A stretch of DNA of 64,000 bases from NCBI GenBank assembly GCA_024638265.1, contig JAHEKQ010000005.1, positions 1-64,000 of the forward strand, read 5' to 3'. The translations under genes and the position numbers were made by a program. The DNA is from Flammeovirgaceae bacterium. Lineage in GTDB: Bacteria > Bacteroidota > Bacteroidia > Cytophagales > Cyclobacteriaceae. The notes below the pieces were generated by a model. It was not told the DNA's origin. It saw nothing but the letters and a program-made list of their open reading frames with translations, and made no database searches. The stretch's first letter is position 1; each line of letters opens with the position of its first letter. Below, piece by piece: positions 1,686 to 12,362 of this stretch.

Positions 1686-2576
1686 CTACCCGATCGATTT
1701 AAGTATCCAATAAACAGGGTTCTTTCCACCGCATTCCCGGTATAATTCATACCACTCTTTCAGATACTCTTTATTTCCGTATTTGTAGGCCATCCTCAGC
1801 TCATATTTTATACGGCGAAGGAGGGCCCTTTTTTCCCTTTGATTACTTACCAGCTGATAGGCCTTCTTTGTCACCATCAGTGTGGAAGCCACCTTTGGGT
1901 CAGTAGGGCCATACATATTGGATGACATTCCCGTAGGCAGTTTCCTCAAAACCATCAAAGCTTCATCCAGGTAGGAATATTTCCAGTCCTTAGCGGAGCG
2001 TATCCAAAAATCAAAATCTTCATAGGCAAGTGAATCATCATATCCACCCATGCGTTCCAACACCTCTCTCCTGATCATCTGGGTAGCTGCAGAAATGAAA
2101 AAATATTCCAATAATTCGGCAAAAATGAACCCCTCTGGTATAGATTTGACCTTTCCGATCTTAAATACCCTTTCCATATGGGTTCCGAGGGAATGCCCGA
2201 CCTCATCTACCAGCTCTGCATCCGTAAAAACCACGCCATAGTCATCCCCCAAATCATTAAATCGTTCTAGCTGCTTACTGACCTTTCCCGGGAGGAAATA
2301 ATCGTCGGCAGCGAGATCGATAATATAGTTACCTGTCGATGCCGCAAATCCTTTGTTAAAAGAAGCGCAATTACCCAGGTTTGTCGGGTTCTCCAGGTAC
2401 TGAAATTCCCCTTCCAGCCGAAGGCTCCTGATCACTTCCCGGCTATTGTCTTCACTGCCATCATCAACTACGATCAACTCAATGTCGTTGTGGTCCTGGT
2501 ACCACACGGACCGGATAGCTTGTTCCACATATTGGGCCTGGTTATAACAGAGTAATATGACGCTTACCTTGCTCAT
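1686..2576 (-). CDS. Glycosyltransferase family 2
   Basis: This is a GT-A fold glycosyltransferase of 296 residues. It starts with VSVILLCYNQ, has the VVDDGSEDNS nucleotide-binding segment near residue 37, and carries a DxD-like AADDYF near residue 90 for metal/sugar-nucleotide binding. A later AYEDFDFW resembles the acceptor/catalytic ED motif of the family. No transmembrane segment is apparent. Its start overlaps the flippase stop by 4 bp, so it is probably the last gene of the minus-strand run beginning near 8862. That context suggests surface glycan or lipid-linked oligosaccharide assembly; the sugar donor and acceptor cannot be told. Confidence 0.88.
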   Translation of the reverse strand: MSKVSVILLCYNQAQYVEQAIRSVWYQDHNDIELIVVDDGSEDNSREVIRSLRLEGEFQYLENPTNLGNCASFNKGFAASTGNYIIDLAADDYFLPGKVSKQLERFNDLGDDYGVVFTDAELVDEVGHSLGTHMERVFKIGKVKSIPEGFIFAELLEYFFISAATQMIRREVLERMGGYDDSLAYEDFDFWIRSAKDWKYSYLDEALMVLRKLPTGMSSNMYGPTDPKVASTLMVTKKAYQLVSNQREKRALLRRIKYELRMAYKYGNKEYLKEWYELYRECGGKNPVYWILKSIG

Positions 2577-3847
2577 TTTCCAACAAGATTTTTTCGCATC
2601 ATGACCAGTAGTGCCAGGAAGAAGAATACATAGCGAACCAGGTTAGCTGCAGGAATGCCCGCGATCCCAAGATCCGTAAGCCCTGTGAATACCACAATCC
2701 CAAGCAAGTAAACCAGGGCGGAAAGAATATGCAGTGAAATGTAAAGATTCCACTTTTCGGTTACTACCAGGAGAAATACCATCAGGAATGACGGCAAAGC
2801 AAATAAATCTGAAAGCAATTGGTAATAAAGAAATTCTCCCGCGGGCAACAATTCACTCTGAAAAAGCAGAAGGATTACCGGTTCTCGTAGAAGGTAAAGC
2901 AGCAATAATCCTGATGCTGAGACAACCATGGCGAGGCCTAACATTTTGCGGATATAAAGGGTCCATTCCTTCCCACCGGCATTCATCCTGCTGATCTGAG
3001 AAAAAAAGATGACACCCAGGGTGCCGAGGAATACCGACCTATAGCTTTCAGACATTCTTACCTGTGCCTGCCAGTGACCCGTAATTTCTGATCCGAACCA
3101 GTTAAGGGCGAAATCCCTTACAAAGTAGTCGACCCATTTTCCCATAACCACCCCGACTACCGCAATTCCAATGAAACGCAATAAAATACGATTCATCGGG
3201 CGGTCAAAACTGAATTTCAGCCTGGGTAAATCCCCACGTACGGTAAGGAATACAAAATTCATTACACTGTATATGCCCCAGCCTGCCGCAAATCCCAGCA
3301 TGGCTCCCTGCACCTCTCCGGAAATCGATCCATAATAGGTTGAAAAAATAATGAGAAGGATATTCGCAATGGTAATTCCAAACAGCAAACGGAATGACTG
3401 ACGGGCGTAGAGGAATGAAAAGGCCAGGCTATTTAGAAGCACAAAGAAAACTGCGAGCAACAAGCCCCACATGTAAAGCGGGGTAGATTGGAATGTATCG
3501 AAATATCGAAGGAAAAAATCTTTCCGGAATACCAGGATAATCGAGATCAGGACAAACAATAGCAGGTTGATCATGAAGCTGGTTCCAATGAGAACCCTCT
3601 TTCTGTCTTCGCTGAACTGTGAATAGTGACGAATAACACCCAGGTTGGTACCCTGTTCAGGGATCTGAGTGACCAATCCTATCAGGTTTTGAAAGTGAGA
3701 AAAGAGGGCTAAGCCCGCAGATCCGAAGTATACCGAAATGATCTTAATGACTGACAGTGTACCCAGGGCACGAACTGCTACAGTGAAAATCGTCCAGGGA
3801 GATTGCGATACGGATCGAAGGAATATGTTCGGCCGTTTCTCCGTCAT
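2573..3847 (-). CDS. Wzx-like O-antigen/polysaccharide flippase
   Basis: This 424-residue polytopic membrane protein has roughly 12 hydrophobic segments and few long loops. The N-terminal SVSQSPWTIFTVAVRALGTL region and overall layout match Wzx/MATE-like O-antigen translocases of the MOP superfamily, which move undecaprenyl-linked oligosaccharides across the inner membrane. It overlaps both neighbours by 4 bp: the GNAT-like transferase upstream and the GT2 gene downstream. Flippase, sugar transferase and acyl/aminoacyl-type transferase together fit a glycan export unit. No polymerase or ligase is visible in the window. Confidence 0.8.
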   Translation of the reverse strand: MTEKRPNIFLRSVSQSPWTIFTVAVRALGTLSVIKIISVYFGSAGLALFSHFQNLIGLVTQIPEQGTNLGVIRHYSQFSEDRKRVLIGTSFMINLLLFVLISIILVFRKDFFLRYFDTFQSTPLYMWGLLLAVFFVLLNSLAFSFLYARQSFRLLFGITIANILLIIFSTYYGSISGEVQGAMLGFAAGWGIYSVMNFVFLTVRGDLPRLKFSFDRPMNRILLRFIGIAVVGVVMGKWVDYFVRDFALNWFGSEITGHWQAQVRMSESYRSVFLGTLGVIFFSQISRMNAGGKEWTLYIRKMLGLAMVVSASGLLLLYLLREPVILLLFQSELLPAGEFLYYQLLSDLFALPSFLMVFLLVVTEKWNLYISLHILSALVYLLGIVVFTGLTDLGIAGIPAANLVRYVFFFLALLVMMRKNLVGK

Positions 3848-4764
3848 AGGACTTTCTCAAAGCTGTCCTTTCGGCAAAAGCAACTACCCAGGTTTTGCTT
3901 GAAATCAAATAGTGAATAATTGGGGGCACCTTCAAGGGAACTTGATCCGAGGTCGTGGAATCGTATACCCGTTTTTGCCAACTCTTCGCCTACTTCGCGG
4001 GTTAGCCTTATTATCGGGCTAATGGAATCGTACTCCCTGGAGTGGGCATGTGCGAAGTCATATGAGATCTTGGAGTCCACCCTGATCAAAGTCATCACGG
4101 CAGCCAATTTTCCATTATCCCTTAGTGAAGCCACAAGGAAATCGTCGGGAAGACTATTCATATGATTTTGAAAATCCTCTAAACCCATTGAAAAGCCCTG
4201 TCCTCTTTCATCCCGGCATTTCAATATGAATTCATGAATCGAAGCACTGTTTTCCGCGGTTTCCCATGAAAAAGTGAGATGACTACACCTCTCCATTTTC
4301 CTCCGGTAATTATGGTCAAAATTGGAAGTAAACGGGCCTGAAATATCCAGGATCGCATGCAATTGAGACTCTGAAATCCTGTATCCCCTATCGACCAGCA
4401 GGTAATTGGACATGGCAGTTGGATAAGTGGGAAGTCCTTCCGGAAGCGACCTGACCACAATACTGGATACTGCTTCTTTTTTTAAAGATTCTTCTACCTC
4501 CCCGATAAAGTTGTTCAGTTCAAGAAGTGTCAGTCCATGGTTTAACTGGAACCCACTGTATGGTGCATAGATTGGAGAAATGGCAGTTTTGTCCCTAATC
4601 TGAAAACTTACAGACGCCCATAATTCACCTCGCTTTAGCAGGTGAAAATATCGTGCTTGGCCACCTCCCTTAAGCTCTAGGTGCCTGGCCCTCGAGAAAA
4701 GAAGTCTCTCCATCCCGGGATATTCTTCGTCTGCTTCTGCCGCTATGAACTTCCAGTCACCCAT
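3844..4764 (-). CDS. GNAT/FemAB-like acyltransferase
   Basis: This 306-residue soluble protein has a two-lobe GNAT arrangement similar to the CelD/BioF2 (GNAT_6) and FemAB families. The segment FDHNYRRKMERC near residue 150 is like the NxRRxIRKA helix of FemAB-type proteins. The C-terminal half (RDNGKLAAVMTLIRVDSKISYDFAHAHSREYD, then LTREVGEELAKTGIRFHDLGSS) resembles the acceptor/CoA-binding GNAT core. Such proteins often acylate sugars or peptidoglycan amines in surface-glycan clusters. It lies 3 bp after the Mpo1-like gene and overlaps the flippase gene by 4 bp. The substrate is unknown. Confidence 0.65.
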   Translation of the reverse strand: MGDWKFIAAEADEEYPGMERLLFSRARHLELKGGGQARYFHLLKRGELWASVSFQIRDKTAISPIYAPYSGFQLNHGLTLLELNNFIGEVEESLKKEAVSSIVVRSLPEGLPTYPTAMSNYLLVDRGYRISESQLHAILDISGPFTSNFDHNYRRKMERCSHLTFSWETAENSASIHEFILKCRDERGQGFSMGLEDFQNHMNSLPDDFLVASLRDNGKLAAVMTLIRVDSKISYDFAHAHSREYDSISPIIRLTREVGEELAKTGIRFHDLGSSSLEGAPNYSLFDFKQNLGSCFCRKDSFEKVL

Positions 4765-4767
4765 GAA

Positions 4768-5244
4768 TTAAAAAGAGATTCCAAACCAGCGATAAATGAA
4801 GCGGAATATCCAAACCGGGGATATGATGAAATGTGTTAGATCTTTCTTGAAGAGCCCGGGACTCCGTTGCTGTATGTGCCCGAGGAGCATAAGTATAAAC
4901 CCTGAACTCAGAAGGATGGTAATTACCTGGTTCATGGGTAGGAATTGCTCCGTCTCCAGGAAATCGATGAGGAACAGGCAACCCTGGTAAAAGAATCCTC
5001 CTGCAAAAGTCAATGAAAAGGACTCTGAACCGAAATAAATGATCATCAGTACAGCGTATACCGTGGCCCAATTGGCATAGTAATTATTTCCAAGCCAGGA
5101 TTTAATTATATCGGAAGGAAGGTGCCACAGAAAAGCCATCAACCCAACGGTAGAAAGAAGTACCCCCAGGATATGCGCAACCCTGTTAAACCTTGTCATG
5201 ATCCCGCCATTGTATCGCTCTATTATTTCATCAATGGGGGCCAT
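4768..5244 (-). CDS. Mpo1/DUF962-like membrane protein
   Basis: I take the ATG at 5244, giving MAPIDEIIERY, rather than the in-frame ATG at 5289. The shorter form starts 2 bp after the stop of the preceding gene instead of overlapping it by 43 bp, and DUF962 proteins usually begin close to this motif. The 158-residue product has about four membrane segments, an NWATVYAVL segment, and a late GHIQQRSPGLFKKDLTHFIISPVW block similar to the conserved GH...EGxxPA...GP.W end of the family. Yeast Mpo1 is an iron-dependent dioxygenase acting on 2-hydroxy fatty acids; activity here is not established. Confidence 0.6.
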   Translation of the reverse strand: MAPIDEIIERYNGGIMTRFNRVAHILGVLLSTVGLMAFLWHLPSDIIKSWLGNNYYANWATVYAVLMIIYFGSESFSLTFAGGFFYQGCLFLIDFLETEQFLPMNQVITILLSSGFILMLLGHIQQRSPGLFKKDLTHFIISPVWIFRFIYRWFGISF

Positions 5245-5246
5245 GC

Positions 5247-5753
5247 TCAAACTTTGGTTTTGACTTTCGCCCAATCCTTGATCTGCCAAATGATCTCTGC
5301 AGTCGCAAGGTGGTTATCATCCTTATCCCTGACTTCAACACTAACTGGCAAGTCCAGTTTTCCTTCCGAGTCGATCTTTGCAATTATCTCATTCTCCACC
5401 CAATAATCTGAAGCCTCAAATCTTGCGTATGCGTCGGCTTTGCCCTGGTAGAAATAGCGGACATTCAGTTCTTTCATGATCAGCCGATATTGCTTGTTGT
5501 CCAGTTTTCTCAAAAGGCTTAAACCCGTCACAAATTCTGCAATGGTAGCCATGCCGCAGGCATGAAGTCCTTTTATGTGGTTCAGATTGGATCTCCTGTA
5601 GGGAAGCCTGGTTATGATATAATCCTCTCCGATCTCATGTACTTTGATCCGGTGAGGTCTGTTAAACGGGATTATCCTTCCCAGGCTGAGGTTCAGGATC
5701 TTTAAATACCTCTTAGATCCCTGTGCCTTATTGATCAATACTTCGGGGTTCAT
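5247..5753 (-). CDS. DUF4442 hotdog-fold protein (thioesterase-like)
   Basis: This 168-residue soluble protein carries the DUF4442 signature: PFNRPHRIKVHEIGEDYIITRLPYRRSN, then the hotdog central helix NHIKGLHACGMATIAEFVTG. Hotdog proteins of this type resemble acyl-CoA thioesterases, and the HIKGLHA segment is where the acyl-thioester site lies in related families. It sits 14 bp after a methyltransferase gene and 2 bp before the Mpo1-like gene. With two lipid-related neighbours, an acyl-thioester or lipid intermediate is a reasonable but unproven substrate. Confidence 0.7.
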   Translation of the reverse strand: MNPEVLINKAQGSKRYLKILNLSLGRIIPFNRPHRIKVHEIGEDYIITRLPYRRSNLNHIKGLHACGMATIAEFVTGLSLLRKLDNKQYRLIMKELNVRYFYQGKADAYARFEASDYWVENEIIAKIDSEGKLDLPVSVEVRDKDDNHLATAEIIWQIKDWAKVKTKV

Positions 5754-5767
5754 TCTGTAAATATAAA

Positions 5768-6382
5768 TTATTGGTGCTTATGCAAGCTATAGACAGCCGA
5801 GAGTATCCGGTTTCTGTAGAGAGTTTTACGCTTTGTTTGCTTCCAACCCGATTCCAGGACAAGTTTCTGCCACGGTGGTAACTCCCTTGCGGGTATACCT
5901 GCCATTATTCTGAAAAACCTGTACATACCGAATACTAATAATCTGTAAAACCAGCTATGAGCACGAACAAAATCAGTGACTACCATAGTTGAATCATCAG
6001 CCAGTTTACTTCGTACCACATTAAGTATTTCATTTAGCTGGTGCGCGTTAAACTGATCGAGGAAAAACGCCATGTGCACCCCGTCATATCCGGATTGATC
6101 CAATGACCGAATGTCGCATTGATAAAACTTAATTTCCATAGTCACGTTCCTCTTGCTGGCTCTTTCAATCATCCCTGAGCTAATATCCACGTAATCGATC
6201 CTGCCGTTATAGCCCAGGCGTTGAAATTCTTTCAATACAATCCCCGTACCTCCCCCAACAATCAATACATTACGGCAGCTTAGCAGGGCTTCAATATTTG
6301 TGCATTGGGATATGGACAGATTATTCCCAAAAACCCTCTTCCCGAGCCAATCGTAATATGAAGCTATTGAATTGTAATTCAT
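5768..6382 (-). CDS. Class I SAM-dependent methyltransferase
   Basis: This 204-residue protein has motif I VLIVGGGTGIVLKEF (about residues 39-53), an acidic motif II end (IDYVDISSGMIERAS) and a motif near IRSLDQSGYDGV, all of a class I Rossmann methyltransferase. The C-terminal FYRLLVFGMYRFFRIMAGIPARELPPW is hydrophobic and may touch the membrane or a lipid substrate. Its start codon shares one base with the stop of the UbiA-like gene. A prenyltransferase-like membrane protein next to a methyltransferase recalls the ring-prenylation and methylation order of quinone pathways; the substrate is unknown. Confidence 0.8.
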   Translation of the reverse strand: MNYNSIASYYDWLGKRVFGNNLSISQCTNIEALLSCRNVLIVGGGTGIVLKEFQRLGYNGRIDYVDISSGMIERASKRNVTMEIKFYQCDIRSLDQSGYDGVHMAFFLDQFNAHQLNEILNVVRSKLADDSTMVVTDFVRAHSWFYRLLVFGMYRFFRIMAGIPARELPPWQKLVLESGWKQTKRKTLYRNRILSAVYSLHKHQ

Positions 6383-7176
6383 CAGAACAGAACAACTAAG
6401 GCCGGTAGAAAAAATGCGCCGTCTGCCACCATACCATAAAGATCATCCCTGCTGAAAAGCTTTCGGTAGCTCCATATCATCACAAATGTACCCCACATCA
6501 GAATCAGTGGAACCTGGAAACTCCATCCGTGTTCCAGGCCGGAAAAAAATCCACAAGCAAGGAATATGAAGAACAATGAATTAATCAACACAGGCGTTCT
6601 TCGATCCAGTCTATTAGTAATATTGTAAACACCATTACTTCTGTCTGCTACCCTTTCGAACCAGGATATAATTACGAGATTAGTAAAAGCAAGGGTCGAA
6701 TGCTGAAATAATAACATCCACTTAATTTCACCCTCTGAAAGTACAATTGGCGCTAAAGCAACCCCCGATGTGTACATAAGGGCTATAATGATTTCCTTCG
6801 GAATGCTGACTTTCTTCCAGACGAGGAAAAGATAGATACCCATTATGACTGACATAAGGAGGCCAATCTTGATTATAGATTCTTCCACCCTTGGTAGTAG
6901 GCGAGCAGAAATAATTATTAAAACCAGTGAAACGAAGAAAAGTATCCGGCTGTTTTTCATGTGAAACCTGTGGCGTGGAAGTTCCACGATCAGTTCTTTA
7001 CGTGTATCGAGCAGGCGATCCATTGTATAAATTACCCATACAGCTGAAAACAAGAGTACATAAACCTCAATATCCGGATCAACTTCATATATCCTGCTGA
7101 AGAAATAACAATTGATACATGCTCCCAGGGATATATCCAGGTTACTATTCCTAAAGATTTTTTGGTAAAGGCCCAA
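6382..7176 (-). CDS. UbiA-like integral membrane protein
   Basis: This 264-residue protein has about eight hydrophobic helices. After the second helix comes YTMDRLLDTRKE followed by PRHRFH, and after the central helices WFERVADRSNGVYN. The spacing of the acidic residues (DxxxD in each half) resembles the two Asp-rich loops of UbiA prenyltransferases, although the canonical NDxxDxxxD is incomplete. I therefore call it UbiA-like, not a proven prenyltransferase. The start is a TTG directly after the stop of the SSS gene; the first in-frame ATG is about 50 residues later, inside the first motif. It is probably co-transcribed with the following methyltransferase. Confidence 0.55.
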   Translation of the reverse strand: MGLYQKIFRNSNLDISLGACINCYFFSRIYEVDPDIEVYVLLFSAVWVIYTMDRLLDTRKELIVELPRHRFHMKNSRILFFVSLVLIIISARLLPRVEESIIKIGLLMSVIMGIYLFLVWKKVSIPKEIIIALMYTSGVALAPIVLSEGEIKWMLLFQHSTLAFTNLVIISWFERVADRSNGVYNITNRLDRRTPVLINSLFFIFLACGFFSGLEHGWSFQVPLILMWGTFVMIWSYRKLFSRDDLYGMVADGAFFLPALVVLF

Positions 7177-11639: not shown

Positions 11640-12362
11640 ATGGAAGTAGTACCTTACAAGGATAAAAAATCAACGAAAAAAGAGCAGGTGGCGGAGATGT
11701 TCGACAACATCTCAAGTAATTATGACTTCCTCAATCACTTTCTAAGCCTTGGAATTGATATTCGTTGGCGCAAAAAAGCTGTGAAGTACCTGGGGGATTC
11801 TTCCCCCAAAATGATTCTCGATGTGGCCACGGGCACCGGGGATTTTGCACTGGAAACGCTGAAACTGAATCCAGATAAAGTTATCGGGATTGATATTTCG
11901 GACGGAATGCTTGAGGTGGGGCGCAAAAAGATGGCCAGGAAAAATCTCAGTGACAAGATCGAAATGCTCCATGGGGACTCGGAGAATATCCCCTTTGAAG
12001 ACAATACTTTCGATGCAGCGGTCGTTGCATTTGGTGTCAGGAATTTTGAAAACCTGGAGAAAGGATTAAGCGAAATCCTGAGGGTACTGAAAAAGGATGG
12101 GAAACTGGTGGTGTTGGAATTTTCGAAACCGCGTCGCTTTCCCTTCAAACAATTGTATAACTTTTATTTTAGGGCGATTTTACCTAAAATAGGCAAACGA
12201 ATCTCGAAGGATAAAGCGGCATATTCCTACCTGCCGGAATCAGTGGGAGCCTTTCCGGATGGTAAGGAATTCCTGAAGATCATGAAAGGGGTAGGATTTA
12301 ACGACACGGAATGCAAAAGCCTTACTTTTGGAATAAGCTCAATATACAAGGGGCAAAAATAG
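11640..12362 (+). CDS. ubiE: Demethylmenaquinone methyltransferase
   Basis: UbiE/MenG methylates demethylmenaquinone using SAM, the last step of menaquinone synthesis. The sequence has the N-terminal [32 protein letters not shown] signature, SAM motif [28 protein letters not shown], and the late [20 protein letters not shown] block. At 240 residues it is normal in length. The last 52 bp overlap the start of porT in another frame. No other menaquinone gene is in the window. Confidence 0.95.

Follow-up and report, generated by a model that had tools for sequence, protein, structure and literature searches.

A divergent UbiA-like membrane protein and its methyltransferase partner point to a possible two-step lipid pathway in at least two bacterial phyla

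The main new result of this analysis is a methyltransferase partner for a UbiA-like membrane protein encoded in a Flammeovirgaceae genome of the order Cytophagales. In the window, by which we mean the whole 64,000-nucleotide stretch of DNA analyzed, the UbiA-like gene occupies positions 6382-7176 of the minus strand (264 amino acids, TTG start). It is followed on the same strand, at 5768-6382, by a gene for a 204-amino-acid class I SAM-dependent methyltransferase with a GGGTG SAM motif, identified as the partner by Pfam, gene neighborhood and co-occurrence. We judge the chances to be about even that this UbiA-fold membrane enzyme and the soluble methyltransferase constitute a two-step module, and the occurrence of the pair in at least two bacterial phyla points to a two-step lipid pathway. 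Computation supports this with the UbiA fold, an acidic motif in either half of the protein, a conserved lysine and arginine, the conserved gene pair, and the finding that within the order the methyltransferase depends on having a UbiA-like partner.

The UbiA-like ORF encodes a multi-helix membrane protein bearing VWVIYTMDRLLDTRKELIVELPRHRFH, in which the motif reads YTMDRLLDTR...PRHRFH and no NDxxDxxxD is present. The ORF and its translation thereby confirm what an earlier, sequence-only reading had claimed, as does the one-base overlap that it described with the methyltransferase gene: the junction between the two genes on the minus strand is CTGTTCTGATGAATTAC, where the TGA stop and the ATG start (TGATG, 6380-6384) have one base in common. 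A sodium/solute symporter ORF lies upstream, its last base being the one before the TTG of the UbiA-like gene.

Assignment to the UbiA superfamily and distribution

On the basis of profile comparisons and a structure model, the ORF is predicted to encode a divergent UbiA-superfamily protein, which represents a real but unstudied branch of the isoprenoid-attaching membrane enzymes. A search with the Pfam UbiA profile (PF01040) found no different family, but the score of 30.1 bits (E 3.8e-7) is under the gathering cut-off of 34.2; some members of the family give no Pfam match whatever. The sole NCBIfam match, at 87.7 bits and E 1e-24, was to NF047439, the "LA_0991 family prenyltransferase-like protein". 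Spanning residues 12-263, it is a full-length profile match; however, it falls far under the curated cut-off of 300 bits, a score reached in none of the 194 genomes of the window's order, and the LA_0991 family name, too, gives no specific function.

When compared by hhalign, the family of the window's protein, hereafter type 1, gave 91.5% against a mix of canonical UbiA proteins, rising to 95.8% when pooled with a second family (type 2, described below), whereas the negative control of seven unrelated multi-TM families gave 0.06-0.36%. Two narrower comparisons count against the assignment, namely heme o synthase (CtaB) alone at 0.12-8.3% and type 1 only against the DGGGPS-like set alone at 28.9%. 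A PDB sequence search with the family profile returned no match at E up to 10, so the evidence for the fold depends on profile-profile comparison and a weak model. The AlphaFold model, built from three sequences (mean pLDDT 54, pTM 0.48), is nearly all helix, with nine long helices. Foldseek ranked 7bpu (DGGGP synthase) first with prob 1.00 and E 0.027, and none of its matches reached E 0.001. Rows 1-11 of the VIA-align search were all UbiA-superfamily structures, with 217-247 residues aligned over most of 12-264 and Z of 8.3-11.2, a size possible by chance for helical bundles; after row 11 came short partial matches, from Z 7.8 downward. Despite that possibility, we accept the UbiA fold because the top rows are unanimous. 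The UbiA helix arrangement was thus obtained, though from a weak model, and the fold, the profiles and the multi-TM control together support the divergent UbiA subfamily that had been proposed.

The genome holds three further UbiA genes, encoding heme o synthase, MenA and a third prenyltransferase of the PRK12872 type, and no second NF047439 match. Separate genes score 263.9 bits with TIGR00751 and 228 bits with TIGR01473, both above cut-off, and the PRK12872-type (DGGGPS-like) gene scores 262.7 bits, under its cut-off of 288. Since MenA, heme o synthase and the third canonical UbiA are encoded separately, the UbiA-like protein is none of them.

Matches to NF047439 were found in 59 of the 194 genomes of the order. 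A profile built from 38 relatives (A1) scored at least 87 bits, our threshold for the presence of type 1, in 61 of the 194; the remaining 12 of the 73 genomes with hits at E<=1e-5 were left out, their best scores of about 25-36 bits being in the range of canonical UbiA genes. In a phylum-wide sample, 19 of 395 genomes matched, nine of these from the window's order, and 41 of 288 genomes from a second phylum, probably Verrucomicrobiota, carry type 1. The closest named relative is from a Cytophagales MAG and is 35% identical. A scan of viral contigs found no relatives, nor did plasmid scans.

Active-site residues

With the UbiA superfamily (PF01040; AfUbiA 4TQ3, ApUbiA 4OD5, DGGGP synthase 6M31/7BPU, UBIAD1) the protein shares the fold, an acidic motif in each half and a conserved lysine. 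It differs in having YxxDxxxD and RHxFH rather than NDxxDxxxD, in a motif II that begins with glutamate, and in an additional conserved Arg/Asp near the C terminus (positions 248 and 252). Residue conservation was assessed in an alignment of 93 relatives, 60 from the order, 21 from the second phylum and 12 from other Bacteroidota. Within motif I (Y50-TMDRLL-D57; 7006-7029, minus strand), Y50 is present in 93/93, D53 in 92/93 and D57 in 81/93. The R68-H-R-F-H72 block 3' of motif I (6961-6975, minus) has R68 in all 93, H69 in a fraction of 0.87 and H72 in 0.71. At K127-E128 (6793-6798, minus), the lysine is found in 90/93 (K or R in 93/93) and E128 in 0.82. Motif II (E174-RVA-D178; 6643-6657, minus), which aligns to the canonical DxxxD, has an acidic residue (E or D) at position 174 in 87/93 and D178 in 73/93. 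The motif that the sequence-only reading had singled out, DRLLDxR...RHRFH, is therefore no chance resemblance, being conserved over the 93 members, but DRLLDxR is not its general form. Members from the order usually read DHLxDA...RHxFH, and the prevalence of H54 (43/60) over R54 (17/60) identifies YxxDxxxD...RHxFH as the conserved element.

In AfUbiA, Mg2+ is coordinated by N68 and D72 of motif I and by D198 and D202 of motif II, R22 and K146 matter in GPP binding, and Y139 is near-universal among UbiA proteins (PMC4106721). In alignments with the profiles of MenA, the DGGGPS-like set and the UbiA mix, E174 and D178 fall on D198 and D202. For motif I the alignments disagree by a helix turn or more: D53/D57 fall on N68/D72 in the mixed UbiA and DGGGPS-like alignments, one MenA alignment places D57 on N68, and long gaps are needed to align CtaB and, in the remaining comparisons, MenA. 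What looks like a lost ND may thus be an N replaced by D. Under the first of these registers, the metal ligands would all four be kept as acids, with a change of N to D rather than a loss. No conserved arginine was found among the 93 relatives in the region aligned to the diphosphate-binding R22, and the near-universal tyrosine is not firmly retained (Y115 in 62/93).

Type 2 is a sister of type 1, which it matches over 274 hhalign columns (98.3%, E 1.5e-14). Its members (for instance L109:6019-6933, plus strand; also at L111, L246, L247 and L228-L245) pair with the same methyltransferase family as type 1. Unlike type 1, they have motif I acids that are wholly gone or down to one, together with a canonical motif II, DxxDxxxD (FDIRDYxxD). 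These alterations would suit a catalytically dead UbiA relative serving as a membrane anchor or regulator of the methyltransferase, given that motif I is altered in type 1 and that type 2 keeps motif II only. We give this reading a slim chance. D53, R68, K127 and E/D174 are retained across phyla, and the gene is kept without a methyltransferase in 20 of the 61 type-1 genomes, so anchoring cannot be the sole role of the protein.

The loss of the motif I acids in type 2 would also suit altered donor handling, as expected if a phosphoribosyl- or other phospho-lipid transferase with the UbiA fold acted on polyprenyl phosphate or a phospholipid and the methyltransferase on the head group. A membrane phosphoribosyltransferase, 8j8j, is among the best VIA-align matches (Z 9.9); however, DGGGP synthase and AfUbiA match as well (Z 10-11.2). 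Similarly, the profile matches of the methyltransferase include phosphoethanolamine N-methyltransferases, but it matches numerous unrelated class I enzymes to much the same degree. Such a transferase seems very unlikely.

Pairing with the methyltransferase

The partner protein has a class I SAM methyltransferase domain by Pfam (Methyltransf_25, 44.1 bits, cut-off 27), and its structure model is poor (pLDDT 46). Gene order was compared over all 58 other NF047439-positive genomes of the order and 21 of the 41 positive second-phylum genomes. In a six-frame count, 27 of the order's 60 loci have the methyltransferase behind the UbiA-like gene and on its strand; in 25 of these pairs the two genes adjoin directly, their reading frames mostly overlapping, and two have a gene-sized gap of about 1.4-1.6 kb. 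The pair was also present at 8 of 21 second-phylum loci and at none of the 12 loci from elsewhere in Bacteroidota and from outlying members. The second-phylum methyltransferases form a single clade of their own (support 100/99), which means that the pairing did not arise by recent transfer between phyla.

The genes upstream of the pair vary from lineage to lineage. Several neighbors were rejected as partners because they change in this way: putative ATP synthase subunits (so named from sequence), DUF4835 and a CoaBC-type protein, and TsaD with MOSC, PGK and the symporter. The DUF4442, Mpo1-like and FemAB-like genes of the window were likewise rejected, being found at none of the other loci scanned.

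For co-occurrence, a methyltransferase was counted as present at 91 bits or more (69 genomes), and 54 of the 123 genomes with hits at E<=1e-10 were dropped, the next best score being 70 bits. The 194 genomes of the order divide into 41 with type 1 and the methyltransferase, 20 with type 1 only, 28 with the methyltransferase only and 105 with neither. All 28 methyltransferase genomes without type 1 have type 2, and in genus g57 the methyltransferase lies directly after a type-2 gene in 5/5 such genomes. The type-2 profile (A5), built from hits that include methyltransferase-bearing genomes, was matched in 65 of 194 genomes, a count that takes in all hits at E<=1e-10, with 35 scoring at least 250 bits. 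One or the other type was present in 69/69 methyltransferase genomes versus 53/125 others (Fisher p 3.6e-19, counted by genome with kinship ignored), and 66 of the 69 still have a partner when type-2 matches of at least 250 bits only are admitted. Kinship is allowed for only by the count of genera, where 28/28 methyltransferase genera fall within the 61/94 genera with either type (p 2.9e-7). The two types occur together in four of the 194 genomes, against about 20 expected (61 x 65 / 194), and three genera hold both, against 10.9 expected.

The association with type 1 extends to the second phylum, with 16 of 27 methyltransferase genomes having it (Fisher p 7e-9). The dependence rule is weaker there than in the order: 11 of the 27 have no detected type 1, in a count that covers type 1 only, and their methyltransferase genes have no UbiA-like neighbor. 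The idea of a two-step pathway, which had been suggested from the gene overlap, is strengthened by the presence of the pair in two phyla and by the order's methyltransferase never occurring without type 1 or its sister.

Proposed pathway and neighboring genes

In the reading that we favor, the two acidic motifs of the UbiA-like protein would bind Mg2+ together with a (poly)prenyl diphosphate or a comparable phosphorylated lipid, whose chain the enzyme would move onto an acceptor at the cytoplasmic face of the membrane. The methyltransferase would then methylate the product, a membrane lipid. The predicted fold and the retained acids suggest prenyl transfer as the first step. The methyltransferase occurs with a UbiA-like partner, the partner does not need the methyltransferase, and the sister lineages substitute for each other, which fits a UbiA-like step first and methylation second. 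The UbiA-like gene is retained by itself in many genomes, so its product must have a use even when unmethylated. More tentatively, at somewhat under an even chance, we propose an undescribed, widespread pathway in which one methyltransferase family works with either of two UbiA-fold sister lineages, in each of which half of the bipartite metal site has been degraded or altered. The joint product would be a membrane lipid new for these bacteria, either a methylated isoprenoid or an isoprenoid-like compound.

UbiA enzymes produce quinones, heme, chlorophyll and archaeal-type lipids. In MenA/UbiE and UbiA/UbiG, quinone prenylation is followed by methylation. The logic of a membrane prenyltransferase and then a SAM methyltransferase is alike, but the sequence families differ from those of the present pair, and MenA is a separate gene here. 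A menaquinone side branch, in which a second prenyltransferase and methyltransferase would act on a menaquinone precursor to give a variant quinone, is rather improbable. An unlinked methyltransferase adjoins menB at L096:7621-8562, and in three genomes of family f11 (L101, L103, L106) unlinked methyltransferases lie a few genes from menE/menB, but these three loci are a single synteny block. Moreover, menA, menB and menE were found at 0/60 UbiA-like loci scanned, and the genome already has MenA and an ORF at window 11640-12362 that, from its sequence, we take to be UbiE-like. The menaquinone links of the methyltransferase are slight.

The same fold and metal chemistry would also serve a UbiA-fold terpene cyclase, which would ionize and cyclize a prenyl diphosphate without an acceptor and leave the methyltransferase to decorate the terpene. 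Intramembrane UbiA-type terpene synthases have been described (PMC9835599) and provide a precedent. However, the spread over many families of the order resembles a core lipid trait more than secondary metabolism, and no terpene genes were noticed among the part of the neighbors that was annotated, and we regard a cyclase as unlikely.

Roughly one in three of the order's sampled genomes keep the UbiA-like branch, and its presence there and in a second phylum may mean an unrecognized membrane component; the methyltransferase link offers a concrete handle on it. Type 2, with motif II kept and motif I acids lost, would bear on what part of the two-metal site is needed for UbiA chemistry. The literature searched, in the portions available, described no such UbiA-like/methyltransferase pair and did not mention LA_0991.

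Several other genes were observed near the two families. Right behind the methyltransferase in the window (4768-5753, minus) are mutually overlapping genes for a DUF4442 (hotdog thioesterase-like) protein and an Mpo1-like membrane protein. The same strand encodes, at 1686-4764, an Acetyltransf_6 (FemAB-like) protein and two proteins whose names come from their sequences alone, one a flippase-like membrane protein and the other a family-2-type glycosyltransferase; together these genes suggest a block for surface polysaccharide. At three loci (L064:4980-5618, L057:7113-7676 and L050:8971-9615), same-strand proteins of about 190-214 amino acids follow the UbiA-like gene in the methyltransferase's place; that from L064, the one tested of the three, had no significant Pfam match. 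Finally, at L112:7923-8684 in a family f13 genome, a gene for a PAP2-type lipid phosphatase adjoins the unlinked methyltransferase, and L110 has similar ORFs.
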